Assembly (NCBI GenBank): GCA_946699065.1
Contig: CAMPDV010000243.1
Location: forward strand, 1-64,000
Origin: Loxodes magnus
Lineage: Eukaryota; Ciliophora; Karyorelictea; Loxodida; Loxodidae
DNA: 64,000 nucleotides
Reading direction: 5' to 3'
Part shown: positions 33,430 through 64,000 of the stretch, piece after piece
Layout of the letters: each line of letters starts with the position of its first letter
Position numbering within the stretch: position 1 is the stretch's first letter
Position numbers and translations under genes: made by a program
The notes under the pieces: model-generated
Told to the model about the DNA's origin: nothing
What the model saw: only the letters and a program-made list of their open reading frames with translations
Databases searched by the model: none

Positions 33430-33850
33430 TTTCTAGTACTGGACTATAAAATTTAAAATTTTTTAACTCTAGTACTTACTTCAAAAAATTTTCTGACACT
33501 TCAAAAATTTAAAATTTTTTAACTTTGAAACATACTCCAAAAAAATTCCTAACACTAGAAAAATTTAAAAATTTTAATCTTGGAAACTTACTTCGAAAAT
33601 TTTCTAGTACTGTGCTAGAAAATTTAAAATTTTTTAACTCTTGTACTTACTCCAAAATTTTTCTGACACTTCAAAAATTTAAAATTTTTTAACTTTGAAA
33701 CATACTCCAAAAAATTTTCTAACACTTTAAAATTTTTTTATTTTTGAAACATACTCCAAAAATTTTTCGAAAACTATAAAAAATTAAAATTTTTTTAACT
33801 CTAAAACATACTCCAAAATTTTTTTCTAACACTAGAAATATTTAAAAAAT
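33430..33850. repeat. Degenerate tandem repeat, period about 55-60 bp
   Basis: About seven imperfect units each contain atttaaaattttttaact followed by a tact(t/c)c block and an attttct(a/g)acac block; the anchor occurs at about 33451, 33507, 33562, 33622 and 33677. Units alternate between 'ctagtactt' and 'tttgaaacat' versions, hinting at an older dimer or trimer. It is AT-rich and no coding potential is evident. Confidence 0.6.
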
Positions 33851-34051: not shown

Positions 34052-36635
34052 TCACTTGCTGTATCTCTATTTGTTCTCCACACTCATTGTTACATTAGCC
34101 ATTACGCAATTCTAAAATCTTAATCCATAGTCTGCATAAACTTTGCTCCAGTCAACCTAAATAATTAATTGGTAGATTCAAACTTACCTATTATTAGTTA
34201 TTAGTGTCTAGTCCATTCAATATCCTTCCTAAGTTCCATCTTCTAATGATGTAATTACTGGTTGCACTTCCCCAATTCCAATGACTTGTACTCGATACCA
34301 ACCATTAGTTGTCCCTAGATAATGATAAACTTCCTGCATAGTCAGAATTGTTTAAGACACAGACACACTAAGAAGTAGATACGTTTCAAATTCTTATTGT
34401 TAAATCAGCTGATCCAGATAAGATAAACTTATTGTCCCTAGAGAAAATAACCGATAACACAGCATTAGTATGTCCCGATAAGACCTTTATACATTATTAT
34501 GTCTTAGAGTTCCATAGTCTCACCGTCTAATCATAACTTTCCGATACGATGAACTCTGAATCACTGGATATAGCCACAGATGATACAGAACTAATGTGAC
34601 CACTCATGGTCTTACAGGTACTTGTCTTGACGTCCCATAGTCTCACCGTATTATCATAACTTTCCGATACGATGAACTCTGAATCACTGGATATAGCCAC
34701 AGATGATACATAACTAGTGTGACCACTCATGGTCTTACAGGTACCTGTCTTGACGTCCCATAGTCTCACCGTCATATCATGACTTCCCGATACGATGAAC
34801 TCTGAATCACTGGATATAGCCACAGCTAATACAGAACTAGTGTGACCACTCATGGTCTTACAGGTACCTGTCTTGACGTCCCATAGTCTCACCGTCTAAT
34901 CATAACTTCCCGATGCGATGAACTCTGAATCACTGGATATAGCCACAGATCATACAGAACTAGTGTGACCACTCATGGTCTAACAGATACCTGTCTTGAC
35001 GTCCCATAGTCTCACCGTCTAATCATAACTTCCCGATACGATGAACTCTGAATCACTGGATATAGCCACAGATCATACAGAACTAGTGTGACCACTCAAA
35101 ATGTGAGGATGCTCAGTTATTATTGAAGACAGGTTAGCGTTAGAGAAGTCACAGTTGATGAATTTTGTGTTACGGAGATTGGCGGTAGTTAAGTTGGAGT
35201 TAGAGAAATTACAATTTGTGAAAGAGGTGTCAGAGAAATCAGCATTAGAAAGGTCGGTGTTTGAGAAATTCTAATTGGTGAACGCGAAGTTCAAGTAGTT
35301 TAACATTGTTAGCGAGTTTGATGTTAATTATGTTACTCCTTATTAAGATTTACAAAGTTGCATAATTTAAATTAACTTGTTTGGAATTTTTTAGTCAGTT
35401 ATTTATGGTAACTTTAACAAAATTTGACCTTAATTAATTAATCCTGGCTTGATTAACGGATTGTATTTCAACGTTGCTATATTGAAATTCTCATCTTTTA
35501 TTTGGTTTAAGAACTTATTTAAATTGTCAAATGTTAGATTTGAGAAATCAGATATTACATACTTGAGTAAGTTTTATTATTCATTACATACTTAAATTAA
35601 TTGACTTTCATTTTTAAAGACATTCTATAAATTTACTACTTTTTACTCTATTACTTAGACTAACTCTCTGGCTTCGATTAATTATTTTTCCTTCTATGAT
35701 AGATCTAACTTTACTAAAGAATCTTTAACTTGAACTTATTAGTTTCGTTATTTTTAATCTATTGTTTGGTCTTATTATTGATACTGAATATTTTAAGATT
35801 CTTAAATGACCTTTTGCTCTTTCATTTAAACGTCTGCCTAACCTTTTTAGTTATCTACATGCTTTTCTACTTAACTAAGACCTCTTACTGCTTTGAATTG
35901 CTTGAAAAACTTTTCAATTAACTACTCTGCCTTCTTCAAAGTTAAGAATTTTCCTTTTACGTTCTCTTTTAAATAGCTGAATAGATTGAATTGACATGCT
36001 TAGATATTGTTTCTTAAAGTTTAAATGTCCATTGGTTGTTTCTAATCTCTCTTAAACTAAGCTATTTCATTTAGAATTTACTGGAATTGTTCTTAAATAT
36101 GATTATTTTATCTTTAATATTATTGCTATTCCATTCTTTAGGCTTAAAATTATTAAACATTATTTGCATCTTTAAGCTAAGATAAACGCTATAATAGATT
36201 CTCTAATTTACTATTACTAAGAGAAAACGAGTCTATTACAGATTTAAATATTGACTGAACTGATAATGACTGGATATGCTTCATAAACTATTAACTTTCC
36301 GAAATAATTTCTCTCACCATAAGTTAGTAATTCTATTTCTAAGAATATTAATCCTGTAACCACTTGAACTACTCATTGATTTGTACTTAATCAATTAATT
36401 CATTTTACTGAATTTGTATGTTTTAATGGTCTGGCTCTTAAACTACATGCCCTTGAAACTATTCAGGATTAATGTTAAAAATTTGTTAATGAATTCGGCA
36501 TTTGATTTCTTACTAAAACTAATATATTGTTTTAAGACAAATTAAACAAGAAATGCAACCACAAGGTAATTGCTTAGATACTCTCTCGTCTTAATCGAAT
36601 TGCTTTTTACAGTTTGGACATTGATTGTTATCCAT
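34052..36635 (-). CDS. RING-like finger / coiled coil / pentapeptide / WD40 protein (850 aa, one intron)
   Basis: With TAA and TAG read as Gln, the minus strand is open from ATG at 36635 through 816 codons, then a 31-nt intron, then 34 codons to a TGA at 34052-34054. Residues 6-49 carry a RING-like zinc ligand set: C6-x2-C9-x15-C25-x1-C27-x2-C30-x2-C33-x12-C46-x2-H49. Residues about 60-440 are Gln/Lys/Glu-rich with heptad-like stretches, probably coiled coil. Residues about 447-509 are pentapeptide repeats (FSNTDL, SNADF, TNCNF, SNANL type). From about 513 there are five near-identical 41-residue WD40 blades, then two divergent ones, seven in all, a complete propeller. In-frame TGA codons at residues 521, 562 and 750 fall where Trp is expected; residue 750 is the Trp of the RIWN dyad. 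The domain order resembles a TRIM-like E3 ubiquitin ligase with WD40 as substrate receptor (inference). If TGA were only a stop, the product would end at residue 520, just inside blade 1. The start is chosen because the first zinc ligand follows it by five residues. Confidence 0.85.
34157..34187 (-). other. 31-nt phase-0 intron in the RING-WD40 gene
   Basis: The minus strand has a GTAAGT donor at 34187 and a TTTAG acceptor ending at 34157. The interval is 31 nt, so removing it shifts the frame. The downstream exon then reads VDWSKVYADYGLRF and ends at TGA 34052. Unspliced, the continuation is compositionally poorer and has an extra in-frame TGA directly after the acceptor. Very short GT-AG introns are common in ciliates. 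The frame arithmetic and the splice motifs agree; there is no transcript evidence. Confidence 0.65.
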
Positions 36636-40431: not shown

Positions 40432-41757
40432 TCAAGTTTTTTCTTGTTCTTTCTCTATCATATATTTTTATTCATTTTCTTGATTAAATTTTTCTTTTTT
40501 TCCTTCTAGAAACTCTTCTAACAACTCATTTTGTAGTTTAAACATTTCAAGACGCTTTTTTAGTAATTTTAAATTAAAATTTTTGATTAATTTGTCTATT
40601 TTAGGAATTTGATTTTTTGAAAAATGTTTGTTTATATAGTTTTAGTCATAAAGAATTAGTTTCTTTTTGTCTTTTTCTTTAAGAGCTTTATGAATTTCGA
40701 ATTCCTCAATAATATCTGTATTTTATTAGCAATAAAAAATAAGATAAGTTTCATCAAAATCTTAGCCACATAAGCAAATAATGCTATATCTAACGTTAAT
40801 GTAACGATTACTGAGTTCTTATTGAAAATTATAAGAAAAATTTCTTAGTTTATAGATGAAAATATAGTCTCTCTAATATAGTGTTTATTATATTTAGTGT
40901 AAGTATTTTCAGGAAATACACTTAAATTATTTTCTATTTAGTCTATAATTCTTTTTGCTGTTGGCATAAGTGTATTTATAGAGAGACATTCCATTAAGAA
41001 TTTATGTTTTATTTTTTATTCCGTGAGTTTATAAAAATCCATATTATTCTAAACATGTGACATGTCAAAATTATACAAATTGATACATTTCTTTATATGT
41101 TTCTAGTATGGTAAATTAAATTTAGTGTCTTTTTCTAATAAAAAGCTGTGTCCTAGTTAGGATTTTCTTTGCTGTATTATATTACTTTTTAATAAAAGTG
41201 CATTAACTTTTGGGTTACCTTATGTGTAAAAGGAAGCCAGTTTAAGTCAATAAAGCATGAATCATTGAATGTGAATTCTTAAGATCTAAACGCCTATCTT
41301 GAAATAAACCTTTACGATTTTGCTATCTTGCTTTTTATTCCTTTAATTCCAGAAATAGTAGCTCACGGAGTAATATCACTTCCATATTAAACTTTAGGCA
41401 AAATAAAAGTTCTATAAAGAATTTTGAAGCCGAGAGGGGATACTAAAACATATTTAGAAAGTATTAAAGTAGCTTTTTAAATTGCTACTCTGTGTTTGGT
41501 AGCTACTGCTGTACTATGTAATTAGTAATTTTATTTTATTCCTAACTAATATCCTAAATAGTTAACTTCATCTTTTTAAGCAATTTAAATTCCATTGAAC
41601 TTTAGAGTAATAGAAGGTTAGCTTTCTTTTCATTTATTTTTTTTCCAGAATTCTATTACTTCACATATATCTACATTAATTGTAAGTTTTATTAAATCAA
41701 AAACTGTAGATGTAGCTTGTAATAATTTTTAGCCATTTTTCTAGGAAGAGGACAATT
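40432..41757 (-). pseudogene. 5'-truncated non-LTR (LINE-type) retrotransposon, reverse transcriptase C-terminal part
   Basis: The minus-strand translation starts at the WD40 junction and shows the end of an RT palm/thumb: LTINVDICEVIEFW, then ITLKFNGI, then DEVNYLGYQLG, LPKVQYGSDITP, and a region ending FIDLNWLPFT. These are typical of the block after the catalytic motifs in LINE RTs; the FxDD catalytic core itself is absent, so the copy is 5'-truncated. A C-terminal Cys-containing segment (ICLCG...YLIFYC) and a basic coiled-coil-like tail end at TGA 40432. Two single-base frameshifts are needed, near 41221 and near 40862. TGA codons at 41630 and 41363 would be Trp under the proposed code; the second gives DITPW, which suits the family. 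The element is dead in this copy regardless of code. Confidence 0.75.
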
Positions 41758-44700
41758 CGATGAACTCTGAATCACTGGATATAGCAACAGATCATACATA
41801 ATCTGTGTGACCACTCATGGTCTTACAGATACCTGTCTTGACGTCCCATAGTCTCACCGTATAATCATGACTTCCCGATACGATGAACTCTGAATCACTG
41901 GATATAGCCACAGATCATACATAATCTGTGTGACCACTCATGGTCTTACAGGTACCTGTCTTGACGTTCCATAGTCTCACCGTCTAATCATGACTTCCCG
42001 ATACGATGAACTCTGAATCACTGGATATAGCCACAGCTTATACTCAATCTGTGTGACCACTCATGGTCTTACAGGTACCTGTCTTGACGTCCCATAGTCT
42101 CACCGTCTAATCATAACTTCCCGATACGATGAACTCTGAATCACTGGATATAGCCACAGATCATACAGAACTAGTGTGACCACTCATGGTCTTACAGGTA
42201 CCTGTCTTGACGTCCCATAGTCTCACCGTCTAATCATAACTTCCCGATACGATGAACTCTGAATCACTGGATATAGCCACAGATCATACAGAACTAGTGT
42301 GACCACTCATGGTCTTACAGATACCTGTCTTGACGTCCCATAGTCTCACCGTCTAATCATAACTTCCCGATACGATGAACTCTGAATCACTCGATATATC
42401 CACAGATCATACATAATCTGTGTGACCACTCATGGTCTTACAGGTACCTGTCTTGACGTCCCATAGTCTCACCGTATAATCATAACTTCCCGATACTATG
42501 AACTCTGAATCACTCGATATATCCACAGATCATACATAATCTGTGTGACCACTCATGGTCTTACAGATACCTGTCTTGACGTCCCATAGTCTCACCGTCT
42601 AATCATGACTTCCCGATACGATGAACTCTGAATCACTGGATATAGCCACAGCTTATAATCAATCTGTGTGACCACTCATGGTCTTACAGATACCTGTCTT
42701 GACGTCCCATAGTCTCACCGTCTAATCATGACTTCCCGATACTATGAACTCTGAATCACTGGATATAGCCACAGATAATACATAACTAGTGTGACCACTC
42801 ATGGTCTTACAGATACCTGTCTTGACGTCCCATAGTCTCACCGTATAATCATGACTTCCCGATACGATGAACTCTGAATCACTGGATATAGCCACAGATC
42901 ATACATAATCTGTGTGACCACTCATGGTCTTACAGGTACCTGTCTTGACGTTCCATAGTCTCACCGTCTAATCATGACTTCCCGATACGATGAACTCTGA
43001 ATCACTGGATATAGCCACAGATGATACAGAACTAATGTGACCACTCATGGTCTTACAGATACCTGTCTTGACGTCCCATAGTCTCACCGTATAATCATGA
43101 CTTCCCGATACGATGAACTCTGAATCACTGGATATAGCCACAGATCATACATAATCTGTGTGATCACTCATGGTCTTACAGATAGCTGTCTTGACGTCCC
43201 ATAGTCTCACCGTCTAATCATAACTTCCCGATACGATGAACTCTGAATCACTGGATATAGCCACAGATCATACAGAACTAGTGTGACCACTCATGGTCTT
43301 ACAGGTACCTGTCTTGACGTCCCATAGTCTCACCGTCTAATCTCCACTTCCCGATACGATGAACTCTGAATCACTGGATATAGCCACAGCTTATACTCAA
43401 TCTGTGTGACCACTCATGGTCTTACAGGTACCTGTCTTGACGTCCCATAGTCTCACCGTCTAATCTCCACTTCCCGATACGATGAACTCTGAATCACTGG
43501 ATATAGCCACAGATCATACAGAACTAGTGTGACCACTCATGGTCTAACAGATACCTGTCTTGACGTCCCATAGTCTCACCGTCTAATCATGACTTCCCGA
43601 TACGATGAACTCTGAATCACTGGATATAGCCACAGATCATACAGAACTAGTGTGACCACTCATGGTCTTACAGGTACCTGTCTTGACGTCCCATAGTCTC
43701 ACCGTATAATCATGACTTCCCGATACGATGAACTCTGAATCACTGGATATAGCCACAGATCATACAGAACTAGTGTGACCACTCATGGTCTTACAGGTAC
43801 CTGTCTTGACGTCCCATAGTCTCACCGTTTAATCATGACTTCCCGATACGATGAACTCTGAATCACTGGATATAGCCACAGATCATACATAATCTGTGTG
43901 ATCACTCATGGTCTTACAGATAGCTGTCTTGACGTCCCATAGTCTCACCGTCTAATCATAACTTCCCGATACGATGAACTCTGAATCACTGGATATAGCC
44001 ACAGATCATACAGAACTAGTGTGACCACTCATGGTCTTACAGGTACCTGTCTTGACGTCCCATAGTCTCACCGTATAATCATGACTTCCCGATACGATGA
44101 ACTCTGAATCACTGGATATAGCCACAGATCATACATAATCTGTGTGACCACTCATGGTCTTACAGGTACCTGTCTTGACGTTCCATAGTCTCACCGTCTA
44201 ATCTCCACTTCCCGATACGATGAACTCTGAATCACTGGATATAGCCACAGATCATACAGAACTAGTGTGACCACTCATGGTCTAACAGATACCTGTCTTG
44301 ACGTCCCATAGTCTCACCGTCTAATCATGACTTCCCGATACGATGAACTCAGAATCACTGGATATATCCACAGATCATACAGAACTAGTGTGACCACTCA
44401 TGGTCTTACAGGTACCTGTCTTGACGTCCCATAGTCTCACCGTATAATCATGACTTCCCGATACGATGAACTCTGAATCACTGGATATAGCCACAGATCA
44501 TACAGAACTAGTGTGACCACTCATGGTCTAACAGATACCTGTCTTGACGTCCCATAGTCTCACCGTATAATCATGACTTCCCGATACGATGAACTCTGAA
44601 TCACTAGATATAGCCACAGATCATACAGAACTAGTGTGACCACTCATGGTCTAACAGATACCTGTCTTGACGTCCCATAGTCTCACCGTCTAATCATGAC

Positions 44701-47700
44701 TTCCCGATACGATGAACTCTGAATCACTGGATATAGCCACAGATCATACATAACTAGTGTGACCACTCATGGTCTTACAGGTACCTGTCTTGACGTCCCA
44801 TAGTCTCACCGTATAATATACACTTCCGAATACGATGAACTCTGAATCACTGGATATAGCCACAGATCATACATAATCTGTGTGACCACTCATGGTCTAA
44901 CAGATACCTGTCTTGACGTCCCATAGTCTCACCGTCTAATCATGACTTCCCGATACGATGAACTCAGAATCACTGGATATATCCACAGATAATACATAAC
45001 TAGTGTGACCACTCATGGTCTTACAGGTACCTGTCTTGACGTCCCATAGTCTCACCGTATAATCATGACTTCCCGATACGATGAACTCAGAATCACTGGA
45101 TATAGCCACAGATCATACAGAACTAGTGTGACCACTCATGGTCTTACAGGTACCTGTCTTGACGTCCCATAGTCTCACCGTATAATCATGACTTCCCGAT
45201 ACGATGAACTCTGAATCACTGGATATAGCCACAGCTTATACTCAATCTGAGTGACCACTCATGGTCTAACAGATACCTGTCTTGACGTCCCATAGTCTCA
45301 CCGTCTAATCATAACTTCCCGATACGATGAACTCTGAATCACTGTATATAGCCACAGCATTTACATAACTAGTGTGACCACTCATGGTCTTACAGGTACC
45401 TGTCTTGAAGTCCCATAGTCTCACCGTCTAATCTCCACTTCCCGATACTATGATTTCTGAATCACTGGATATAGCCACAGCATGTATATAATTAGTGTAA
45501 CCACTCATGGTCTAACAGATACCTGTCTTGACGTCCCATAGTCTCACCGTCTAATCATGACTTCCCGATACGATGAACTCTGAATCACTGGATATAGCCA
45601 CAGATCATACAGAACTAGTGTGACCACTCATGGTCTTACAGGTACCTGTCTTGACGTTCCATAGTCTCACCGTCTAATCATGACTTCCCGATACGATGAA
45701 CTCTGAATCACTGGATATAGCCACAGATCATACATAATCTGTGTGACCACTCATGGTCTTACAGGTACCTGTCTTGACGTCCCATAGTCTCATCGTATAA
45801 TCATGACTTCCCGATACGATGAACTCAGAATCACTGGATATAGCCACAGCAGATACATAACTAGTGTGACCACTCATGGTCTTACAGGTACCTGTCCTGA
45901 CGTCCCATAGTCTCACCGTATAATCATGACTTCCCGATACGATGAACTCTGAATCACTGGATATAGCCACAGCTTATAATCAATCTGTGTGACCACTCAT
46001 GGTCTTACAGGTACCTGTCTTGACGTCCCATAGTCTCACCGTATAATATACACTTCCGAATACGATGAACTCTGAATCACTGGATATAGCCACAGATAAT
46101 ACAGAACTAGTGTGACCACTCATGGTCTTACAGGTACCTGTCTTGACGTCCCATAGTCTCACCGTATAATCATTACTTCCCGATACGATGAACTCTGAAT
46201 CACTGGATATAGCCACAGATCATACAATATTAGTGTGACCACTCATGGTCTTACAGGTACCTGTCTTGACGTCCCATAGTCTCACCGTATAATCATGACT
46301 TCCCGATACGATGAACTCAGAATCACTGGATATAGCCACAGCTTATACTCAATCTGTGTGACCACTCATGGTCTTACAGATACCTGTCTTGACGTCCCAT
46401 AGTCTCACCGTCTAATCATTACTTCCCGATACTATGAACTCTGAATCACTCGATATAGCCACAGATGATACAGAACTAGTGTGACCACTCATGGTCTTAC
46501 AGATACCTGTCTTGAAGTCCCATAGTCTCACCGTCTAATCTCCACTTCCCGATACGATGAACTCTGAATCACTGGATATAGCCACAGATGATACAGAACT
46601 AATGTGACCACTCATGGTCTTACAGATACCTGTCTTGACGTCCCATAGTCTCACCGTCTAATCATGACTTCCCGATACGATGAACTCTGAATCACTGGAT
46701 ATAGCCACAGATGATACAGAACTAATGTGACCACTCATGGTCTTACAGATACCTGTCTTGACGTCCCATAGTCTCACCGTATAATCATAACTTCCCGATA
46801 CTATGAACTCTGAATCACGGGATATAGCCACAGATCATACAGAACTAGTGTGACCACTCATGGTCTTACAGGTACCTGTCTTGACGTCCCATAGTCTCAC
46901 CGTATAATCATGACTTCCCGATACGATGAACTCTGAATCACTGGATATAGCCACAGATCATACATAATCTGTGTGACCACTCATGGTCTTACAGGTACCT
47001 GTCTTGACGTTCCATAGTCTCACCGTCTAATCATGACTTCCCGATACGATGAACTCTGAATCACTGGATATAGCCACAGATGATACAGAACTAATGTGAC
47101 CACTCATGGTCTTACAGATACCTGTCTTGACGTCCCATAGTCTCACCGTATAATCATGACTTCCCGATACGATGAACTCTGAATCACTGGATATAGCCAC
47201 AGATCATACATAATCTGTGTGACCACTCATGGTCTTACAGGTACCTGTCTTGACGTTCCATAGTCTCACCGTCTAATCATGACTTCCCGATACGATGAAC
47301 TCTGAATCACTGGATATAGCCACAGCTTATACTCAATCTGTGTGACCACTCATGGTCTAACAGATACCTGTCTTGACGTCCCATAGTCTCACCGTCTAAT
47401 CATAACTTCCCGATACGATGAACTCTGAATCACTGTATATAGCCACAGCATTTACATAACTAGTGTGACCACTCATGGTCTTACAGGTACCTGTCTTGAA
47501 GTCCCATAGTCTCACCGTCTAATCTCCACTTCCCGATACTATGATTTCTGAATCACTGGATATAGCCACAGCATGTATATAATTAGTGTAACCACTCATG
47601 GTCTAACAGATACCTGTCTTGACGTCCCATAGTCTCATCGTATAATCATGACTTCCCGATACGATGAACTCAGAATCACTGGATATAGCCACAGCAGATA

Positions 47701-50700
47701 CATAACTAGTGTGACCACTCATGGTCTTACAGGTACCTGTCCTGACGTCCCATAGTCTCACCGTATAATCATGACTTCCCGATACGATGAACTCTGAATC
47801 ACTGGATATAGCCACAGCTTATAATCAATCTGTGTGACCACTCATGGTCTTACAGGTACCTGTCTTGACGTCCCATAGTCTCACCGTATAATATACACTT
47901 CCGAATACGATGAACTCTGAATCACTGGATATAGCCACAGATAATACAGAACTAGTGTGACCACTCATGGTCTTACAGGTACCTGTCTTGACGTCCCATA
48001 GTCTCACCGTCTAATCATGACTTCCCGATACGATGAACTCTGAATCACTGGATATAGCCACAGATCATACATAATCTGTGTGACCACTCATGGTCTTACA
48101 GATACCTGTCTTGACGTCCCATAGTCTCACCGTATAATCATGACTTCCCGATACGATGAACTCTGAATCACTGGATATAGCCACAGATCATACATAATCT
48201 GTGTGACCACTCATGGTCTAACAGATACCTGTCTTGACGTCCCATAGTCTCACCGTCTAATCATAACTTCCCGATACGATGAACTCTGAATCACTCGATA
48301 TATCCACAGATCATACATAATCTGTGTGACCACTCATGGTCTTACAGGTACCTGTCTTGACGTCCCATAGTCTCACCGTATAATCATAACTTCCCGATAC
48401 TATGAACTCTGAATCACTCGATATATCCACAGATCATACATAATCTGTGTGACCACTCATGGTCTTACAGATACCTGTCTTGACGTCCCATAGTCTCACC
48501 GTCTAATCATGACTTCCCGATACGATGAACTCTGAATCACTGGATATAGCCACAGATGATACAGAACTAATGTGACCACTCATGGTCTTACAGATACCTG
48601 TCTTGACGTCCCATAGTCTCACCGTATAATATACACTTCCGAATACGATGAACTCTGAATCACTGGATATAGCCACAGATAATACAGAACTAGTGTGACC
48701 ACTCATGGTCTTACAGATACCTGTCTTGACGTCCCATAGTCTCACCGTATAATCATGACTTCCCGATACGATGAACTCTGAATCACTGGATATAGCCACA
48801 GATCATACAGAACTAGTGTGACCACTCATGGTCTAACAGATACCTGTCTTGACGTCCCATAGTCTCACCGTCTAATCATGACTTCCCGATACGATGAACT
48901 CAGAATCACTGGATATATCCACAGATCATACAGAACTAGTGTGACCACTCATGGTCTTACAGATACCTGTCTTGACGTCCCATAGTCTCACCGTATAATC
49001 ATGACTTCCCGATACGATGAACTCTGAATCACTGGATATAGCCACAGATCATACATAATCTGTGTGATCACTCATGGTCTTACAGATAGCTGTCTTGACG
49101 TCCCATAGTCTCACCGTCTAATCATAACTTCCCGATACGATGAACTCTGAATCACTGGATATAGCCACAGATCATACAGAACTAGTGTGACCACTCATGG
49201 TCTTACAGGTACCTGTCTTGACGTCCCATAGTCTCACCGTCTAATCTCCACTTCCCGATACGATGAACTCTGAATCACTGGATATAGCCACAGCTTATAC
49301 TCAATCTGTGTGACCACTCATGGTCTTACAGGTACCTGTCTTGACGTCCCATAGTCTCACCGTCTAATCTCCACTTCCCGATACGATGAACTCTGAATCA
49401 CTGGATATAGCCACAGATCATACAGAACTAGTGTGACCACTCATGGTCTAACAGATACCTGTCTTGACGTCCCATAGTCTCACCGTCTAATCATGACTTC
49501 CCGATACGATGAACTCTGAATCACTGGATATAGCCACAGATCATACAGAACTAGTGTGACCACTCATGGTCTTACAGGTACCTGTCTTGACGTCCCATAG
49601 TCTCACCGTATAATCATGACTTCCCGATACGATGAACTCTGAATCACTGGATATAGCCACAGATCATACAGAACTAGTGTGACCACTCATGGTCTTACAG
49701 GTACCTGTCTTGACGTCCCATAGTCTCACCGTTTAATCATGACTTCCCGATACGATGAACTCTGAATCACTGGATATAGCCACAGATCATACATAATCTG
49801 TGTGATCACTCATGGTCTAACAGATACCTGTCTTGACGTCCCATAGTCTCACCGTCTAATCATGACTTCCCGATACGATGAACTCTGAATCACTGGATAT
49901 AGCCACAGATCATACATAATCTGTGTGACCACTCATGGTCTTACAGGTACCTGTCTTGACGTCCCATAGTCTCACCGTCTAATCTCCACTTCCCGATACG
50001 ATGAACTCTGAATCACTGGATATAGCCACAGCTTATACTCAATCTGTGTGACCACTCATGGTCTTACAGGTACCTGTCTTGACGTCCCATAGTCTCACCG
50101 TCTAATCTCCACTTCCCGATACGATGAACTCTGAATCACTGGATATAGCCACAGATCATACAGAACTAGTGTGACCACTCATGGTCTAACAGATACCTGT
50201 CTTGACGTCCCATAGTCTCACCGTCTAATCATGACTTCCCGATACGATGAACTCAGAATCACTGGATATATCCACAGATCATACAGAACTAGTGTGACCA
50301 CTCATGGTCTTACAGGTACCTGTCTTGACGTCCCATAGTCTCACCGTATAATCATGACTTCCCGATACGATGAACTCTGAATCACTGGATATAGCCACAG
50401 ATCATACAGAACTAGTGTGACCACTCATGGTCTAACAGATACCTGTCTTGACGTCCCATAGTCTCACCGTCTAATCTCCACTTCCCGATACGATGAACTC
50501 TGAATCACTAGATATAGCCACAGATCATACAGAACTAGTGTGACCACTCATGGTCTAACAGATACCTGTCTTGACGTCCCATAGTCTCACCGTCTAATCA
50601 TGACTTCCCGATACGATGAACTCTGAATCACTGGATATAGCCACAGATCTTACAGAATCTGTGTGACCACTCATGGTCTTACAGGTACCTGTCTTGACGT

Positions 50701-53700
50701 CCCATAGTCTCACCGTATAATATACACTTCCGAATACGATGAACTCTGAATCACTGGATATAGCCACAGATCATACAGAACTAGTGTGACCACTCATGGT
50801 CTAACAGATACCTGTCTTGACGTCCCATAGTCTCACCGTCTAATCATGACTTCCCGATACGATGAACTCTGAATCACTGGATATAGCCACAGATCATACA
50901 TAATCTGTGTGACCACTCATGGTCTTACAGGTACCTGTCTTGACGTCCCATAGTCTCACCGTATAATCATGACTTCCCGATACGATGAACTCTGAATCAC
51001 TGGATATAGCCACAGATCATACTCAATCTGTGTGACCACTCATGGTCTTACAGGTACCTGTCTTGACGTCCCATAGTCTCACCGTATAATCATGACTTCC
51101 CGATACGATGAACTCTGAATCACTGGATATAGCCACAGCTTATACTCAATCTGAGTGACCACTCATGGTCTAACAGATACCTGTCTTGACGTCCCATAGT
51201 CTCACCGTCTAATCATAACTTCCCGATACGATGAACTCTGAATCACTGTATATAGCCACAGCATTTACATAACTAGTGTGACCACTCATGGTCTTACAGG
51301 TACCTGTCTTGAAGTCCCATAGTCTCACCGTCTAATCTCCACTTCCCGATACTATGATTTCTGAATCACTGGATATAGCCACAGCATGTATATAATTAGT
51401 GTAACCACTCATGGTCTAACAGATACCTGTCTTGACGTCCCATAGTCTCACCGTCTAATCATGACTTCCCGATACGATGAACTCTGAATCACTGGATATA
51501 GCCACAGATCATACAGAACTAGTGTGACCACTCATGGTCTTACAGGTACCTGTCTTGACGTTCCATAGTCTCACCGTCTAATCATGACTTCCCGATACGA
51601 TGAACTCTGAATCACTGGATATAGCCACAGATCATACATAATCTGTGTGACCACTCATGGTCTTACAGGTACCTGTCTTGACGTCCCATAGTCTCATCGT
51701 ATAATCATGACTTCCCGATACGATGAACTCAGAATCACTGGATATAGCCACAGCAGATACATAACTAGTGTGACCACTCATGGTCTTACAGGTACCTGTC
51801 CTGACGTCCCATAGTCTCACCGTATAATCATGACTTCCCGATACGATGAACTCTGAATCACTGGATATAGCCACAGCTTATAATCAATCTGTGTGACCAC
51901 TCATGGTCTTACAGGTACCTGTCTTGACGTCCCATAGTCTCACCGTATAATATACACTTCCGAATACGATGAACTCTGAATCACTGGATATAGCCACAGA
52001 TAATACAGAACTAGTGTGACCACTCATGGTCTTACAGGTACCTGTCTTGACGTCCCATAGTCTCACCGTCTAATCATTACTTCCCGATACGATGAACTCT
52101 GAATCACTGGATATAGCCACAGATCATACAGAATCTGTGTGACCACTCATGGTCTAACAGATACCTGTCTTGACGTCCCATAGTCTCACCGTCTAATCTC
52201 CACTTCCCGATACGATGAACTCTGAATCACTGGATATAGCCACAGATCATACAGAACTAGTGTGACCACTCATGGTCTTACAGGTACCTGTCTTGACGTC
52301 CCATAGTCTCACCGTATTATCATAACTTTCCGATACGATGAACTCTGAATCACTGGATATAGCCACAGATCATACAGAACTAGTGTGACCACTCATGGTC
52401 TTACAGGTACCTGTCTTGACGTCCCATAGTCTCACCGTCTAATCTCCACTTCCCGATACGATGAACTCTGAATCACTGGATATAGCCACAGCTTATACTC
52501 AATCTGTGTGACCACTCATGGTCTTACAGGTACCTGTCTTGACGTCCCATAGTCTCACCGTCTAATCTCCACTTCCCGATACGATGAACTCTGAATCACT
52601 GGATATAGCCACAGATCATACAGAACTAGTGTGACCACTCATGGTCTAACAGATACCTGTCTTGACGTCCCATAGTCTCACCGTCTAATCATGACTTCCC
52701 GATACGATGAACTCAGAATCACTGGATATATCCACAGATCATACAGAACTAGTGTGACCACTCATGGTCTTACAGGTACCTGTCTTGACGTCCCATAGTC
52801 TCACCGTATAATCATGACTTCCCGATACGATGAACTCTGAATCACTGGATATAGCCACAGATCATACAGAACTAGTGTGACCACTCATGGTCTTACAGGT
52901 ACCTGTCTTGACGTCCCATAGTCTCACCGTATAATCATGACTTCCCGATACGATGAACTCTGAATCACTGGATATAGCCACAGATCATACAGAACTAGTG
53001 TGACCACTCATGGTCTAACAGATACCTGTCTTGACGTCCCATAGTCTCACCGTATAATCATGACTTCCCGATACGATGAACTCTGAATCACTGGATATAG
53101 CCACAGATCATACAGAACTAGTGTGACCACTCATGGTCTTACAGGTACCTGTCTTGACGTCCCATAGTCTCACCGTCTAATCTCCACTTCCCGATACGAT
53201 GAACTCTGAATCACTGGATATAGCCACAGATCATACAGAACTAGTGTGACCACTCATGGTCTAACAGATACCTGTCTTGACGTCCCATAGTCTCACCGTC
53301 TAATCATGACTTCCCGATACGATGAACTCAGAATCACTGGATATATCCACAGATCATACAGAACTAGTGTGACCACTCATGGTCTTACAGGTACCTGTCT
53401 TGACGTCCCATAGTCTCACCGTCTAATCATGACTTCCCGATACGATGAACTCTGAATCACTGGATATAGCCACAGATCATACATAACTAGTGTGACCACT
53501 CATGGTCTTACAGGTACCTGTCTTGACGTCCCATAGTCTCACCGTATAATCATGACTTCCCGATACGATGAACTCTGAATCACTGGATATAGCCACAGCT
53601 TATACTCAATCTGTGTGACCACTCATGGTCTTACAGGTACCTGTCTTGACGTCCCATAGTCTCACCGTATAATCATGACTTCCCGATACGATGAACTCTG

Positions 53701-56700
53701 AATCACTGGATATAGCCACAGCTTATACTCAATCTGTGTGACCACTCATGGTCTAACAGATACCTGTCTTGACGTCCCATAGTCTCACCGCCTAATCGTC
53801 ACTTCCCGATACGATGAACTCTGAATCACTGGATATAGCCACAGCATATACGTTACTCGTGTGACCACTCATGGTCTTACAGGTACCTGTCTTGACGTCC
53901 CATAGTCTCACCGCCTAATCGTCACTTCCCGATACGATGAACTCTGAATCACTGGATATAGCCACAGCAGATACATAACCCGTGTGACCACTCATGGTCT
54001 TACAGGTACCTGTCTTGACGTCCCATAGTCTCACCGTATAATCATTACTTCCCGATAGGATGAACTCTGAATCACTGGATATAGCCACAGCAGATACATA
54101 ACCCGTGTGACCACTCATGGTCTTACAGGTACCTGTCTTGACGTCCCATAGTCTCACCGTCTAATCATGACTTCCCGATACGATGAACTCAGAATCACTG
54201 GATATATCCACAGATCATACAGAACTAGTGTGACCACTCATGGTCTTACAGGTACCTGTCTTGACGTCCCATAGTCTCACCGTATAATCATGACTTCCCG
54301 ATACGATGAACTCTGAATCACTGGATATAGCCACAGATGATACATTACTCGTGTGACCACTCATGGTCTTACAGGTACCTGTCTTGACGTCCCATAGTCT
54401 CACCGTATAATATACACTTCCGAATACGATGAACTCTGAATCACTAGATATAGCCACAGATCATACAGAACTAGTGTGACCACTCATGGTCTAACAGATA
54501 CCTGTCTTGACGTCCCATAGTCTCACCGTCTAATCATAACTTCCCGATACGATGAACTCTGAATCACTGGATATAGCCACAGATCATACATAACTAGTGT
54601 GACCACTCATGGTCTTACAGGTACCTGTCTTGACGTCCCATAGTCTCAATGTATAATATACACTTCCGAATACGATGAACTCTGAATCACTGGATATAGC
54701 CACAGATCATACAGAACTAGTGTGACCACTCATGGTCTAACAGATACCTGTCTTGACGTCCCATAGTCTCACCGTCTAATCATGACTTCCCGATACGATG
54801 AACTCAGAATCACTGGATATATCCACAGATCTTACAGAATCTGTGTGACCACTCATGGTCTTACAGGTACCTGTCTTGACGTCCCATAGTCTCACCGTCT
54901 AATCATAACTTCCCGATACGATGAACTCTGAATCACTGGATATAGCCACAGCAGATACATAACTAGTGTGACCACTCATGGTCTTACAGGTACCTGTCTT
55001 GACGTCCCATAGTCTCACCGTATAATCATGACTTCCCGATACGATGAACTCTGAATCACTGGATATAGCCACAGCTTATACTCAATCTGTGTGACCACTC
55101 ATGGTCTAACAGATACCTGTCTTGACGTCCCATAGTCTCACCGTCTAATCATAACTTCCCGATACGATGAACTCTGAATCACTGTATATAGCCACAGCAT
55201 TTACATAACTAGTGTGACCACTCATGGTCTTACAGGTACCTGTCTTGAAGTCCCATAGTCTCACCGTATAATCATGACTTCCCGATACGATGAACTCTGA
55301 ATCACTGGATATAGCCACAGATCATACAGAACTAGTGTGACCACTCATGGTCTAACAGATACCTGTCTTGACGTCCCATAGTCTCACCGTCTAATCTCCA
55401 CTTCCCGATACGATGAACTCTGAATCACTGGATATAGCCACAGCTTATACTCAATCTGTGTGACCACTCATGGTCTTACAGGTACCTGTCTTGACGTCCC
55501 ATAGTCTCACCGTATAATCATGACTTCCCGATACGATGAACTCTGAATCACTGGATATAGCCACAGCTTATACTCAATCTGTGTGACCACTCATGGTCTT
55601 ACAGGTACCTGTCTTGACGTCCCATAGTCTCACCGTATAATCATGACTTCCCGATACGATGAACTCAGAATCACTGGATATAGCCACAGATCATACAGAA
55701 CTAGTGTGACCACTCATGGTCTTACAGGTACCTGTCTTGACGTCCCATAGTCTCACCGTCTAATCATTACTTCCCGATACTATGAACTCTGAATCACTCG
55801 ATATAGCCACAGATCATACAGAACTAGTGTGACCACTCATGGTCTTACAGATACCTGTCTTGACGTCCCATAGTCTCACCGTCTAATCATTACTTCCCGA
55901 TACTATGAACTCTGAATCACTCGATATAGCCACAGATGATACAGAACTAGTGTGACCACTCATGGTCTTACAGGTACCTGTCTTGACGTCCCATAGTCTC
56001 ACCGTATTATCTCAACTTCCCGATACGATGAACTCTGAATCACTGGATATAGCCACAGATCATACAGAATCTGTGTGACCACTCATGGTCTTACAGATAC
56101 CTGTCTTGACGTCCCATAGTCTCACCGTATTATCTCAACTTCCCGATACGATGAACTCAGAATCACTGGATATAGCCACAGATCATACAGAACTAGTGTG
56201 ACCACTCATGGTCTTACAGGTACCTGTCTTGACGTCCCATAGTCTCACCGTCTAATCATTACTTCCCGATACGATGAACTCAGAATCACTGGATATAGCC
56301 ACAGATCATACAGAACTAGTGTGACCACTCATGGTCTTACAGATACCTGTCTTGAAGTCCCATAGTCTCACCGTCTAATCTCCACTTCCCGATACTATGA
56401 ACTCTGAATCACTGGATATAGCCACAGCATGTATATAATTAGTGTGACCACTCATGGTCTAACAGATACCTGTCTTGACGTCCCATAGTCTCACCGTATT
56501 ATCGTCACTTCCCGATACGATGAACTCTGAATCACTGGATATAGCCACAGCAGATACATAACTAGTGTGACCACTCATGGTCTTACAGGTACCTGTCCTG
56601 ACGTCCCATAGTCTCACCGCCTAATCATAACTTCCCGATACGATGAACTCTGAATCACTGGATATAGCTACAGATCTTACAGAATCTGTGTGACCACTCA

Positions 56701-59700
56701 TGGTCTTACAGGTACCTGTCTTGACGTCCCATAGTCTCACCGTATAATCATGACTTCCCGATACGATGAACTCAGAATCACTGGATATAGCCACAGCAGA
56801 TACATAACTAGTGTGACCACTCATGGTCTTACAGGTACCTGTCCTGACGTCCCATAGTCTCACCGTCTAATCATGACTTCCCGATACGATGAACTCTGAA
56901 TCACTGGATATAGCCACAGCTTATACTCAATCTGTGTGACCACTCATGGTCTTACAGGTACCTGTCTTGACGTCCCATAGTCTCACCGTATAATATACAC
57001 TTCCGAATACGATGAACTCTGAATCACTGGATATAGCCACAGCAGATACATAACTAGTGTGACCACTCATGGTCTTACAGGTACCTGTCTTGACGTCCCA
57101 TAGTCTCACCGTATTATCATGACTTCCCGATACGATGAACTCTGAATCACTGGATATAGCCACAGCTTATACTCAATCTGTGTGACTACTCATGGTCTTA
57201 CAGGTACCTGTCTTGACGTCCCATAGTCTCACCGTCTAATTCACACTTCCGAATACGATGAACTCTGAATCACTGGATATAGCCACAGCTTATACTCAAT
57301 CTGTGTGACCACTCATGGTCTTACAGGTACCTGTCTTGACGTCCCATAGTCTCACCGTATAATCATGACTTCCCGATACGATGAACTCTGAATCACTGGA
57401 TATAGCCACAGCAGATACATAACTAGTGTGACCACTCATGGTCTTACAGGTACCTGTCCTGACGTCCCATAGTCTCACCGTATAATCATGACTTCCCGAT
57501 ACGATGAACTCAGAATCACTGGATATAGCCACAGATCATACAGAATCTGTGTGACCACTCATGGTCTTACAGGTACCTGTCTTGACGTCCCATAGTCTCA
57601 CCGTCTAATCATTACTTCCCGATACGATGAACTCTGAATCACGGGATATAGCCACAGCATATACATTACTCGTGTGACCACTCATGGTCTTACAGGTACC
57701 TGTCTTGACGTCCCATAGTCTCACCGTATAATCATGACTTCCCGATACGATGAACTCAGAATCACTGGATATAGCCACAGATCATACAGAACTAGTGTGA
57801 CCACTCATGGTCTTACAGGTACCTGTCTTGACGTCCCATAGTCTCACCGTATTATCTCAACTTCCCGATACGATGAACTCTGAATCACGGGATATAGCCA
57901 CAGATGATACAGAACTAGTGTGACCACTCATGGTCTTACAGGTACCTGTCTTGACGTCCCATAGTCTCACCGTATAATCATGACTTCCCGATACGATGAA
58001 CTCTGAATCACTGGATATAGCCACAGCATATACATAACTAGTGTGACCACTCATGGTCTTACAGGTACCTGTCTTGACGTCCCATAGTCTCACCGTATTA
58101 TCTCAACTTTCCGATACGATGAACTCTGAATCACTGGATATAGCCACAGCAGATACATAACTAGTGTGACCACTCATGGTCTTACAGGTACCTGTCCTGA
58201 CGTCCCATAGTCTCACCGCCTAATCTACACTTCCCGATACGATGAACTCTGAATCAATGGATATAGCCACAGATCTTACAGAATCTGTGTGACCACTCAT
58301 GGTCTAACATGTACCTGTCTTGACGTCCCATAGTCTCACCGTCTAATATACACTTCCGAATACGATGAACTCTGAATCACTGGATATAGCCACAGATAAT
58401 ACAGAACTAGTGTGACCACTCATGGTCTAACAGATACCTGTCTTGACGTCCCATAGTCTCACCGTATAATCATGACTTCCCGATACGATGAACTCTGAAT
58501 CACTGGATATAGCCACAGATGATACAGAACTAGTGTGACCACTCATGGTCTTACAGGTACCTGTCTTGACGTCCCATAGTCTCACCGTCTAATAAACACT
58601 TCCGAATACGATGAACTCTGAATCACTGGATATAGCCACAGCTTATACTCAATCTGTGTGACCACTCATGGTCTTACAGGTACCTGTCTTGACGTCCCAT
58701 AGTCTCACCGTATAATCATGACTTCCCGATACGATGAACTCTGAATCACTGGATATAGCCACAGCATATACATAACTAGTGTGACCACTCATGGTCTAAC
58801 AGATACCTGTCTTGACGTCCCATAGTCTCACCGTCTAATCATGACTTCCCGATACGATGAACTCAGAATCACTGGATATAGCCACAGCTTATACTCAATC
58901 TGTGTGACCACTCATGATCTTACAGGTACCTGTCTTGACGTCCCATAGTCTCACCGTCTAATCATTACTTCCCGATACTATGAACTCTGAATCACTGGAT
59001 ATAGCCACAGCATATACATTACTCGTGTGACCACTCATGGTCTTACAGGTACCTGTCTTGACGTCCCATAGTCTCACCGTATAATCATTACTTCCCGATA
59101 CGATGAACTCTGAATCACTGGATATAGCCACAGATCATACAATATTAGTGTGACCACTCATGGTCTTACAGGTACCTGTCTTGACGTCCCATAGTCTCAC
59201 CGTCTAATCATTACTTCCCGATACTATGAACTCTGAATCACTGGATATAGCCACAGATCATACAGAACTAGTGTGACCACTCATGGTCTTACAGATACCT
59301 GTCTTGACGTCCCATAGTCTCACCGTATAATCATAACTTCCCGATACGATGAACTCTGAATCACTGGATATAGCCACAGCTTATACTCAATCTGTGTGAC
59401 CACTCATGGTCTAACAGATACCTGTCTTGACGTCCCATAGTCTCACCGTCTAATCATGACTTCCCGATACTATGAACTCAGAATCACTGGATATAGCCAC
59501 AGATCATACAGAACTAGTGTGACCACTCATGGTCTTACAGGTACCTGTCTTGACGTCCCATAGTCTCACCGTATTATCTCAACTTCCCGATACGATGAAC
59601 TCTGAATCACTGGATATAGCCACAGATCATACAGAACTAGTGTGACCACTCATGGTCTTACAGATACCTGTCTTGACGTCCCATAGTCTCACCGTATAAT

Positions 59701-62700
59701 CATAACTTCCCGATACGATGAACTCTGAATCACTGGATATAGCCACAGCTTATACTCAATCTGTGTGACCACTCATGGTCTTACAGGTACCTGTCTTGAC
59801 GTCCCATAGTCTCACCGTCTAATTCACACTTCCGAATACGATGAACTCTGAATCACTGGATATAGCCACAGCTTATACTCAATCTGTGTGACTACTCATG
59901 GTCTTACAGGTACCTGTCTTGACGTCCCATAGTCTCACCGTCTAATTCACACTTCCGAATACGATGAACTCTGATCACTGGATATAGCCACAGCTTATAC
60001 TCAATCTGTGTGACCACTCATGGTCTAACAGATACCTGTCTTGACGTCCCATAGTCTCACCGTCTAATCATGACTTCCCGATACGATGAACTCAGAATCA
60101 CTGGATATAGCCACAGATCATACATAACTAGTGTGACCACTCATGGTCTTACAGATACCTGTCTTGACGTCCCATAGTCTCACCGTCTAATCATTACTTC
60201 CCGATACTATGAACTCTGAATCACTGGATATAGCCACAGATGATACAGAACTAATGTGACCACTCATGGTCTTACAGGTACCTGTCTTGACGTCCCATAG
60301 TCTCACCGTATAATCATGACTTCCCGATACGATGAACTCTGAATCACTGGATATAGCCACAGATGATACAGAACTAGTGTGACCACTCATGGTCTTACAG
60401 GTACCTGTCTTGACGTCCCATAGTCTCACCGTCTAATAAACACTTCCGAATACTATGAACTCTGAATAACTGGATATGGCCACAGATGATACAGAACTAG
60501 TGTGACCACTCATGGTCTTACAGATACCTGTCTTGACGTCCCATAGTCTCACCGTATTATCTCAACTTTCCGATACGATGAACTCTGAATCACTGGATAT
60601 AGCCACAGCAGATACATAACTAGTGTGACCACTCATGGTCTTACAGGTACCTGTCTTGACGTCCCATAGTCTCACCGTATTATCTCAACTTTCCGATACG
60701 ATGAACTCTGAATCACTGGATATAGCCACAGCAGATACATAACTAGTGTGACCACTCATGGTCTTACAGGTACCTGTCCTGACGTCCCATAGTCTCACCG
60801 TCTAATCATAACTTCCCGATACTATGAACTCTGAATCACTGGATATAGCCACAGATCATACAATATTAGTGTGACCACTCATGGTCTTACAGGTACCTGT
60901 CTTGACGTCCCATAGTCTCACCGTATAATCATTACTTCCCGATACTATGAACTCTGAATCACTGGATATAGCCACAGATGATACAGAACTAATGTGACCA
61001 CTCATGGTCTAACAGATACCTGTCTTGACGTCCCATAGTCTCACCGTATTATCATGACTTCCCGATACGATGAACTCTGAATCACTGGATATAGCCACAG
61101 CTTATACTCAATCTGTGTGACCACTCATGGTCTTACAGGTACCTGTCTTGACGTCCCATAGTCTCACCGTATAATCATGACTTCCCGATACTATGAACTC
61201 TGAATAACTGGATATGGCCACAGATGATACAGAACTAGTGTGACCACTCATGGTCTTACAGATACCTGTCTTGACGTCCCATAGTCTCACCGTCTAATCA
61301 TGACTTCCCGATACGATGAACTCTGAATCACTGGATATAGCCACAGATCATACAATATTAGTGTGACCACTCATGGTCTTACAGGTACCTGTCTTGACGT
61401 CCCATAGTCTCACCGTCTAATCATTACTTCCCGATACTATGAACTCTGAATCACTGGATATAGCCACAGATCTTACAGAATCTGTGTGACTACTCATGGT
61501 CTTACAGGTACCTGTCTTGACGTCCCATAGTCTCACCGTCTAATTCACACTTCCGAATACGATGAACTCTGAATCACTGGATATAGCCACAGCTTATACT
61601 CAATCTGTGTGACTACTCATGGTCTTACAGGTACCTGTCTTGACGTCCCATAGTCTCACCGTCTAATTCACACTTCCGAATACGATGAACTCTGAATCAC
61701 TGGATATAGCCACAGCTTATACTCAATCTGTGTGACCACTCATGGTCTTACAGATACCTGTCTTGACGTCCCATAGTCTCACCGTATTATCTCAACTTCC
61801 CGATACGATGAACTCAGAATCACTGGATATAGCCACAGATCATACAGAACTAGTGTGACCACTCATGGTCTTACAGGTACCTGTCTTGACGTCCCATAGT
61901 CTCACCGTCTAATTCACACTTCCGAATACGATGAACTCTGAATCACTGGATATAGCCACAGCTTATACTCAATCTGTGTGACCACTCATGGTCTTACAGG
62001 TACCTGTCTTGACGTCCCATAGTCTCACCGTCTAATCTCCACTTCCCGATACGATGAACTCTGAATCACTGGATATAGCCACAGATCATACAGAACTAGT
62101 GTGACCACTCATGGTCTAACAGATACCTGTCTTGACGTCCCATAGTCTCACCGTATAATATACACTTCCCGATACGATGAACTCAGAATCACTGGATATA
62201 TCCACAGATCATACAGAACTAGTGTGACCACTCATGGTCTTACAGGTACCTGTCTTGACGTCCCATAGTCTCACCGTATAATCATGACTTCCCGATACGA
62301 TGAACTCTGAATCACTGGATATAGCCACAGATCATACAGAACTAGTGTGACCACTCATGGTCTAACAGATACCTGTCTTGACGTCCCATAGTCTCACCGT
62401 ATAATATACACTTCCGAATACGATGAACTCTGAATCACTAGATATAGCCACAGATCATACAGAACTAGTGTGACCACTCATGGTCTAACAGATACCTGTC
62501 TTGACGTCCCATAGTCTCACCGTCTAATCATAACTTCCCGATACGATGAACTCTGAATCACTGGATATAGCCACAGATCATACATAACTAGTGTGACCAC
62601 TCATGGTCTTACAGGTACCTGTCTTGACGTCCCATAGTCTCACCGTATAATATACACTTCCGAATACGATGAACTCTGAATCACTGGATATAGCCACAGA

Positions 62701-64000
62701 TCATACAGAACTAGTGTGACCACTCATGGTCTAACAGATACCTGTCTTGACGTCCCATAGTCTCACCGTCTAATCATGACTTCCCGATACGATGAACTCA
62801 GAATCACTGGATATATCCACAGATAATACATAACTAGTGTGACCACTCATGGTCTTACAGGTACCTGTCTTGACGTCCCATAGTCTCACCGTATAATCAT
62901 GACTTCCCGATACGATGAACTCTGAATCACTGGATATAGCCACAGCTTATACTCAATCTGTGTGACCACTCATGGTCTTACAGGTACCTGTCTTGACGTC
63001 CCATAGTCTCACCGTATAATCATGACTTCCCGATACGATGAACTCTGAATCACTGGATATAGCCACAGCTTATACTCAATCTGTGTGACCACTCATGGTC
63101 TAACAGATACCTGTCTTGACGTCCCATAGTCTCACCGTCTAATCATAACTTCCCGATACGATGAACTCTGAATCACTGTATATAGCCACAGCATTTACAT
63201 AACTAGTGTGACCACTCATGGTCTTACAGGTACCTGTCTTGAAGTCCCATAGTCTCACCGTATAATCATGACTTCCCGATACGATGAACTCTGAATCACT
63301 GGATATAGCCACAGATCATACAGAACTAGTGTGACCACTCATGGTCTAACAGATACCTGTCTTGACGTCCCATAGTCTCACCGTCTAATCTCCACTTCCC
63401 GATACGATGAACTCTGAATCACTGGATATAGCCACAGCTTATACTCAATCTGTGTGACCACTCATGGTCTTACAGGTACCTGTCTTGACGTCCCATAGTC
63501 TCACCGTATAATATACACTTCCGAATACGATGAACTCTGAATCACTGGATATAGCCACAGATAATACAGAACTAGTGTGACCACTCATGGTCTTACAGGT
63601 ACCTGTCTTGACGTCCCATAGTCTCACCGTATAATCATGACTTCCCGATACGATGAACTCTGAATCACTGGATATAGCCACAGCTTATACTCAATCTGTG
63701 TGACCACTCATGGTCTTACAGGTACCTGTCTTGACGTCCCATAGTCTCACCGTATAATCATGACTTCCCGATACGATGAACTCAGAATCACTGGATATAG
63801 CCACAGATCATACAGAACTAGTGTGACCACTCATGGTCTTACAGGTACCTGTCTTGACGTCCCATAGTCTCACCGTCTAATCATTACTTCCCGATACGAT
63901 GAACTCAGAATCACTGGATATAGCCACAGATCATACAGAACTAGTGTGACCACTCATGGTCTAACAGATACCTGTCTTGACGTCCCATAGTCTCACCGTC
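41758..64000 (-). CDS. Giant WD40 repeat protein or repeat reservoir (partial, 5' end outside window)
   Basis: Each unit encodes a 41-residue WD40 blade: RLWDVKTG(T/I)C(K/Q)TMSGH, then two variable residues, V, two variable residues, VAISSDSEFIVSGS, then a variable triplet before TV. TAG/TAA occur in frame as Gln (DQTV, CQTM, VQAV). TGA occurs in frame at three sites where Trp is canonical: GHTD-W-V, SSV-W-SV, SGS-W-DNTV. Read this way the array is a single open frame from the single-base deletion near 59974 down to the retrotransposon junction, with 32 more units upstream of it in another frame. The start, any N-terminal domain and any real stop are not in the window. It resembles the five upstream blades of the RING gene at 34052-36635. 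It may be a giant gene truncated by the retrotransposon, or a non-expressed donor array. Long WD40 proteins usually have 7-14 blades; about 180 would be extreme. Confidence 0.5.
43060..52060. repeat. Higher-order duplication in the WD40 array, offset 5,904 bp (48 units)
   Basis: Rare markers recur at exactly 5,904 bp = 48 x 123: gatagctgtcttgac at 43181 and 49085; actgtatatagcc at 45341 and 51245; ataatatacacttcc at 44812 and 50716; and the VRTGTC/TMRLWD unit pair at 45728 and 51632. The copies span about 43060-46150 and about 48960-52060 with mostly shared unit order. Smaller in-phase copies of the same markers lie at 43919 (+6 units), 47432 (+17 units), 55181 (+32 units from 51245) and 63175. 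Confidence 0.8.
59965..59985 (-). other. Single-base deletion in the WD40 array
   Basis: One unit reads aactctgatcactgg where all other units have an additional a (ctgaatcac). Unit spacing is 122 instead of 123 here. It shifts the minus-strand frame; the shifted frame meets a TGA at 59947-59949 nine codons later. It is either a real frameshift separating 32 upstream units from 149 downstream ones or a consensus error in a highly repetitive assembly. Confidence 0.85.

Follow-up and report, generated by a model that had tools for sequence, protein, structure and literature searches.

Selection on the WD40 repeats of the Podospora HNWD genes has been described at two codon pairs, 7/9 around codon 8 and 25/27 around codon 26 (PMC1805685, PMC2873952), and a rule for interaction hotspots in WD40 blades combines the motif (V/L/I)-R1-R2-(V/L/I) with the position that precedes the tetrad Asp (PMC3419727). 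A review of satellite DNA names rDNA spacers and transposons among its seeds (PMC5615363). For the karyorelict ciliate Loxodes magnus, a 706-Mbp MAC assembly and a code in which UAR is Q and UGA is W or stop have been reported; the main text of that paper contains none of the terms 'wd40', 'satellite', 'ring finger', 'pentapeptide' and 'gene family' (PMC11441545), and a literature search for Loxodes papers mentioning WD40 found none. Here, we analyse a window of 64,000 nucleotides, the first 64,000 positions of L. magnus contig CAMPDV010000243.1 (C243:1-64000), which holds both a long tandem array of WD40 blades and a gene with the same blades, together with other contigs of the same assembly (C142, C303, C6, C4, C438 and C154). 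The assembly searched comprises 705,730,643 bases (705.7 Mb) in 7,843 contigs and reads with UAR as Q and UGA as W.

The blade array in the window

The array and its one aberrant unit are as follows.
41758..64000, minus strand: tandem array of 123-bp (41-codon) WD40 blade units (TRF and unit parsing)
59894..60015, minus strand: 122-bp unit, with a 1-bp deletion that shifts the array frame (unit spacing)

An array of about 181 blades over 22 kb had been predicted from the letters of the window, and it was confirmed: TRF gives a period of 123, 180.8 copies and 92% matches over 41758-64000, and the minus strand parses into 179 full units of 123 bp and one of 122 bp, with a single spacing in the array that is not a multiple of 123. 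The unit consensus, GHTSSVWSVAISSDSEFIVSGSHDQTVRLWDVKTGTCKTMS, is readable only with TAG as Q and TGA as W; the array frame stays open only if TAA and TAG are Q and TGA is W, and an in-frame TGA is present in 127 of the 179 full units. By DNA, 106 of these 179 units are distinct, and by protein 96.

Seven of the 41 codons (4, 5, 7, 8, 23, 24 and 25; 17% of the columns) hold 63% of the nucleotide diversity of the array, with pN 0.319 versus pS 0.107, and the backbone has a pairwise pN/pS of 0.53. The residues that the original prediction had listed are present at these hot codons. Its claim that variation is confined to a few surface codons stands as a concentration but not as a confinement, as variation also occurs elsewhere, largely silent at codons 3, 15 and 18 and replacing residues at 36 and 38. 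Pooled across all codons, the diversity is about equal over codon positions 1, 2 and 3 (0.0735, 0.0819 and 0.0701). As foreseen, the variable sites correspond to the hotspots of the WD40 top face and to the pairs selected in Podospora (PMC3419727, PMC1805685, PMC2873952); in our own mapping by the rule of PMC3419727, codons 5, 7 and 23 would be the R1-2, R1 and D-1 hotspots of that face.

Linkage disequilibrium among the window units is strong within three blocks (z 33, 28 and 58) and weak to moderate across them, which points to short-tract shuffling of unit blocks. Together with the family-wide homogenisation of the blade backbone described below, this supports in part the combinatorial make-up and concerted evolution that had been proposed. 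Two runs of identical units, one of 8 and one of 7, lie 48 units apart and reveal segmental duplication.

On the minus strand, the stretch 40900-41758 of the window is open and fused in frame to the array at its 3' edge. To the eye, this stretch resembles the terminal part of a reverse transcriptase from a non-LTR retrotransposon; a Pfam search of the ORF fused to the array edge (41758 to about 40900) gave no match.

A dispersed family of single-propeller genes

The same blades occur in a gene of the window, with the following parts.
34215-36635, minus strand: family member with RING-like cluster, pentapeptide repeats and one seven-bladed propeller; same blades as the array
35118..36635, minus strand: N-terminal 506 codons, with RING-like Cys/His cluster, a long Q-rich, coiled-coil-looking middle and pentapeptide repeats (14 copies)
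36471..36635, minus strand: RING-like Cys/His cluster (C6 C9 C25 C27 C30 C33 C46 H49), unchanged in all 14 copies
35127..35303, minus strand: pentapeptide repeats (PF00805), in 14 of 14 copies
34215..35117, minus strand: seven-bladed WD40 propeller of the window gene, five array-type blades (about 34479-35093) and then two divergent C-terminal blades

The N-terminus as query gave 383 first-look candidates, of which only 40 were scored, at 87-92% identity, and the pentapeptide end gave 519, of which only 40 were scored, at 83-92%. The gene sample is of 52 copies, all among the nearest to the window gene. One of them, L016, is frameshifted ahead of the blades. The propeller region is open in 45 of the 51 others (43 at 300-307 residues, two at 260); among the remaining six, L095, L100, L104 and L106 have frame changes among the blades, L099 has one past blade 7 and L107 is cut by the contig end. 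One seven-blade propeller, of five array-type and two C-terminal blades, is thus the rule in the sampled genes. In 14 N-termini, Q is encoded by TAA 693 times, TAG 211, CAA 262 and CAG 105. The Trp of blade 6 is encoded by UGA in all 31 motif-matched places among 51 loci scanned, in genes that are otherwise open, and the reading of the copies as pseudogenes under a UGA-stop code was therefore set aside.

The structure model of the window-gene propeller has 28 strands in a closed fold of seven four-stranded blades (pLDDT 93.1, pTM 0.91), and its nearest folds are WDR5 (TM about 0.86), PAFAH1B1 and designed seven-bladed propellers. At the other end of the protein, the eight invariant Cys/His residues suggest a RING, with weak model matches: zf-RING_2 matched 4 of 14 N-termini with a best E of 0.015, below the cut-off; a zinc-ribbon model did better in one (0.0027); and the nearest PDB RING by sequence, that of TRIM32, is a weak match (E 0.67). 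Across the 14 N-termini, hmmscan against Pfam (E up to 0.1) returned 10 families, with no NACHT and no HET, and relatives of the N-terminus sought among viral contigs gave none that was confirmed. The family genes are probably recognition proteins with a variable propeller, and the RING-like end may signal.

Several further features of the copies were observed. Of the 35 copies on contigs of at least 100 kb, 26 are within 40 kb of an end, where 13.8 would be expected (P 5e-5); this excess may reflect a subtelomeric home, or contigs may merely break in nearby satellites. A tandem repeat with a period of about 56 bp, rich in A and T, lies 3' of the family gene at window positions 33448-33847, and similar-looking sequence, by eye, follows several sampled copies. 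In L100 (C438:97110-98065) the blades change frame and seemingly continue as an array, which may show how an array begins to form.

Selection in the genes

The N-terminus is conserved in 14 copies with a dN/dS of 0.24. For the blades, pN and pS were compared in 171 blades from 45 genes. The hot codons 4, 5, 7, 8, 23 and 25 have a pN/pS of 2.15 versus 0.31 for the backbone, and the ratio of hot pN to backbone pS is 4.2 (2.9-5.9 in 40 bootstraps of 15 genes). Codons 6 and 24 are nearly invariant, with Asp24 retained in 170 of the 171 blades. Synonymous diversity is 0.35 in the N-terminus versus 0.12 in the blade backbone, and concerted evolution, by which the backbone is homogenised family-wide, is visible in these sequences. 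Backbones are no closer within genes than between them (70 of 400 shuffles), whereas hot sites are closer within than between (0 of 400 shuffles). Of the 45 propellers, 44 have a fingerprint of their own, the 158 six-site combinations of the blades include 145 distinct ones, and the two blade halves that hold the hot blocks assort independently across genes (z 1.2).

Blade arrays across the genome

The array continues past position 64000 of C243. All six 10-kb pieces between 64 and 124 kb are array, as are all nine probes placed between 140 and 179.6 kb, and the edge lies near 180 kb, so that the array is about 138 kb long. On C142, 14 of 15 probes (50-480 kb and 10 kb) are array, with the one miss at 10 kb. 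A 30-mer of the unit, ACGGTGAGACTATGGGACGTCAAGACAGGT, has 361,330 exact matches in the genome, in both orientations and on many contigs, and its reversed control has 0. Because only part of the sampled units hold this 30-mer exactly (153 of 180 in the window and, further on, 399 of about 488), we estimate a genome total of about 430,000 units, roughly 50 Mb; 361,330 units alone amount to 44 Mb, and the blade satellite makes up about 6 to 8% of the assembly.

Arrays differ in the set of alleles that they carry, with 5.4 to 10.9 differences within arrays and 10.6 between them. The tetrad residue Asp24 is lost in the C243 array only and kept in 14 of 14 other array samples; loss of Asp24 and Thr36 as a general trait of the satellite was accordingly rejected as peculiar to C243. 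At codon 23, the genome counts (TAT 117,081; GCA 56,564; CAT 43,553; GCT 500) rank as in 127 gene blades (TAT 36, GCA 21, CAT 14, GCT 2). Spacings other than 123 recur: in C243 between 64 and 124 kb there are 12 of 122 bp among 486, others are in C142a and near C6:38 kb, and of 13 further array samples five have such spacings and eight have none.

Long tandem arrays may be imperfectly assembled, exact array lengths may be wrong, and the size difference between the L. magnus MIC and MAC assemblies was ascribed by its authors to misassembled low-complexity repeats (PMC11441545). We nevertheless give hardly any credence to the explanation that misassembly of repeats made the length or content of the array, as the exact 30-mers are found by the hundred thousand in both orientations on many contigs, and array-specific allele sets and linkage blocks within units are unlike collapse or chimerism.

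Two other repeats or neighbours of arrays were noted. Positions 1-31655 of the window are an 85-bp satellite of 374 copies, with a period that 3 does not divide; one 32-mer from this satellite has 7,215 genome matches, far rarer than the blade 30-mer, and on C154 its spacing is 90 bp. Ahead of the C4 array, the stretch L090 (C4:2224900-2226300) resembles a different WD40 protein (TIKVWDLKAE...) and not the N-terminus of the family.

The arrays as probable satellite DNA

Gene blades and arrays differ in their backbones. Estimated from distinct variants, backbone omega in arrays is 0.77 in the window, 0.88 at 64-124 kb, 0.90 over 686 units and 1.01 for variants under 2%, versus 0.46 in gene blades, where 0 of 4000 simulations were as low. 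Outside the hot codons, 111 of the 179 window units have a residue that is absent from all 167 gene blades, as do 276 of 474 units further along and 11 of 33 units of C142, compared with 30 of 167 gene blades when each gene is left out in turn. With the frameshifts, these values do not sustain the original prediction that the array itself is a repertoire under diversifying selection. Some constraint on arrays, inherited or current, does appear visible, because pN/pS is 0.53 in the window and omega is 0.71 in 14 other array samples (P = 0.035).

A single translated ORF of well over 181 blades, a giant receptor under diversifying selection, would account for the almost perfectly kept 123-bp phase and for the excess of pN over pS at the hot codons of the array, and UGA and UAR can be sense in L. 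magnus. It is, however, very improbable. Frameshifts of 1 bp recur within and between arrays; an N-terminal domain sought in about 1 kb beyond the far edge of the C243 array (about 180 kb) was not seen; the C142 array lies next to a family copy with a frameshift ahead of its blades; and the sampled genes, as a rule, have one seven-blade propeller. The frameshifts and the near-neutral backbone led us to reject this giant-ORF reading.

We consider it likely that the array is instead an untranslated satellite of WD40-blade monomers, derived from the dispersed receptor-like gene family. The arrays are tandem and of very high copy, as the count of 361,330 30-mers attests, and the frameshifts and the omega of 0.77-1.01 argue that they are not maintained as coding, though omega is 0.71 elsewhere. 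The very exact unit length counts against the satellite reading, as do the eight further samples with no spacing other than 123 and the retention of Asp24 outside C243. On the best reading, the selected repertoire would be the dispersed single-propeller genes and not the array.

Apparent kinship of genes and neighbouring arrays

Silent cassettes act as donors in antigenic variation. Untranslated blade arrays might similarly form a silent donor bank that supplies blades or blade parts to neighbouring genes through gene conversion; we regard this as rather unlikely, and it is compatible with the satellite reading, not exclusive of it. The window gene has six private codon states, of which five are found in the C243 array, and its Ile36 and Gln38 occur in that array and in no other sampled one. 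Exclusivity of the private alleles to C243 was rejected, as three of these states (Glu21, Ser35 and Met25) are also in other arrays, and the C243 sample of 653 units versus 11-57 elsewhere favours sharing. Blades 1-4 of the window gene are 1, 1, 3 and 2 differences from array units and 4, 3, 5 and 4 from the closest blade of another gene, but the gene may itself have seeded the C243 array. An array on C6, 12 kb from gene L082, has the Asn14, Cys7 and codon 23/25 states of L082. Ranked by closeness to the C243, C303 and near-C6 arrays, the gene that shares the contig comes 2nd, 14th and 3rd of 44, the third pair having been picked after the pattern matches were seen and the C303 pair ranking only 14. 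The independent assortment of hot blocks in genes would also suit a donor bank, whereas the nearest relatives of gene blades do not: of 123, 77 are nearer another gene, 24 are nearer sampled array units and 22 are ties.

The sequences thus support a local kinship of genes and same-contig arrays, which either direction of exchange fits. The arrays would have been seeded from neighbouring receptor genes and perhaps exchange with them. That some 430,000 silent blades constitute a genomic bank rewriting hundreds of single-propeller recognition genes by local gene conversion, as a eukaryotic cassette system that varies a binding surface without a dedicated enzyme, we hold to be unlikely.

The satellite reading suggests the following course of events. 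In the genes, selection would diversify the top-face codons 4, 5, 7, 8, 23 and 25 of five interchangeable 41-residue blades, while recombination would hold the remaining blade alike family-wide and the two C-terminal blades would stay fixed, so that each propeller would show a different binding surface. The propeller would bind a variable partner and the RING-like end would relay the signal, perhaps by ubiquitination. Blades of individual gene copies would be amplified in tandem, and the arrays so formed, some reaching hundreds of kilobases, would then drift, acquire frameshifts and homogenise locally. The hypervariable pattern of the array would accordingly be a fossil of selection acting in the genes, with the caution that an array may be silent even where its diversity is restricted to surface codons.

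Comparison with known systems

The ciliate family works like the NWD/HNWD genes of Podospora anserina (HET-D, HET-E and HET-R) as regards the surface that it diversifies, but its domains place it outside that family. Both have near-identical WD40 repeats, selection on two codon pairs that flank a conserved residue (here 5/7 around V6 and 23/25 around D24, the counterparts of 7/9 and 25/27, with pN/pS 2.16 at codons 5, 7, 23 and 25) and concerted evolution within and between genes, seen here in the low synonymous diversity of the backbone. The NACHT NTPase and N-terminal HET domain of the fungal proteins, however, have no match in the 14 N-termini, which carry the RING-like cluster and pentapeptide repeats. 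Repeat numbers vary in Podospora, whereas the sampled ciliate genes have a fixed five plus two blades, and the 10 Podospora genes stand against hundreds of candidate ciliate copies and megabase-scale blade arrays outside genes. The use of the same surface positions in fungi and a ciliate is apparent convergence. Hypervariable WD40 recognition, known from allorecognition in fungi, would extend to a ciliate whose effector architecture differs.

RING E3 ligases such as the TRIM proteins have an N-terminal RING and a C-terminal binding domain. The ciliate family resembles them in its N-terminal RING-like Cys/His cluster and C-terminal binding domain, and differs in its intervening pentapeptide repeats and in the weakness of its putative RING matches. 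The Highly-Repetitive WD40 proteins (Hu et al. 2017) share high blade identity and diversity at predicted interaction hotspots; that survey is of proteins, chiefly prokaryotic, and an untranslated blade satellite was not found in the part of it available.

Like satellite DNA, the arrays are tandem, of very high copy, locally homogenised and near-neutral. Unlike other satellite DNA, they have a monomer that corresponds exactly to one structural unit of a protein and whose variation still bears the marks of selection on protein contacts. The L. magnus arrays would represent a satellite whose building block is the binding unit under selection in a living gene family, in which both directions of exchange are testable across strains.
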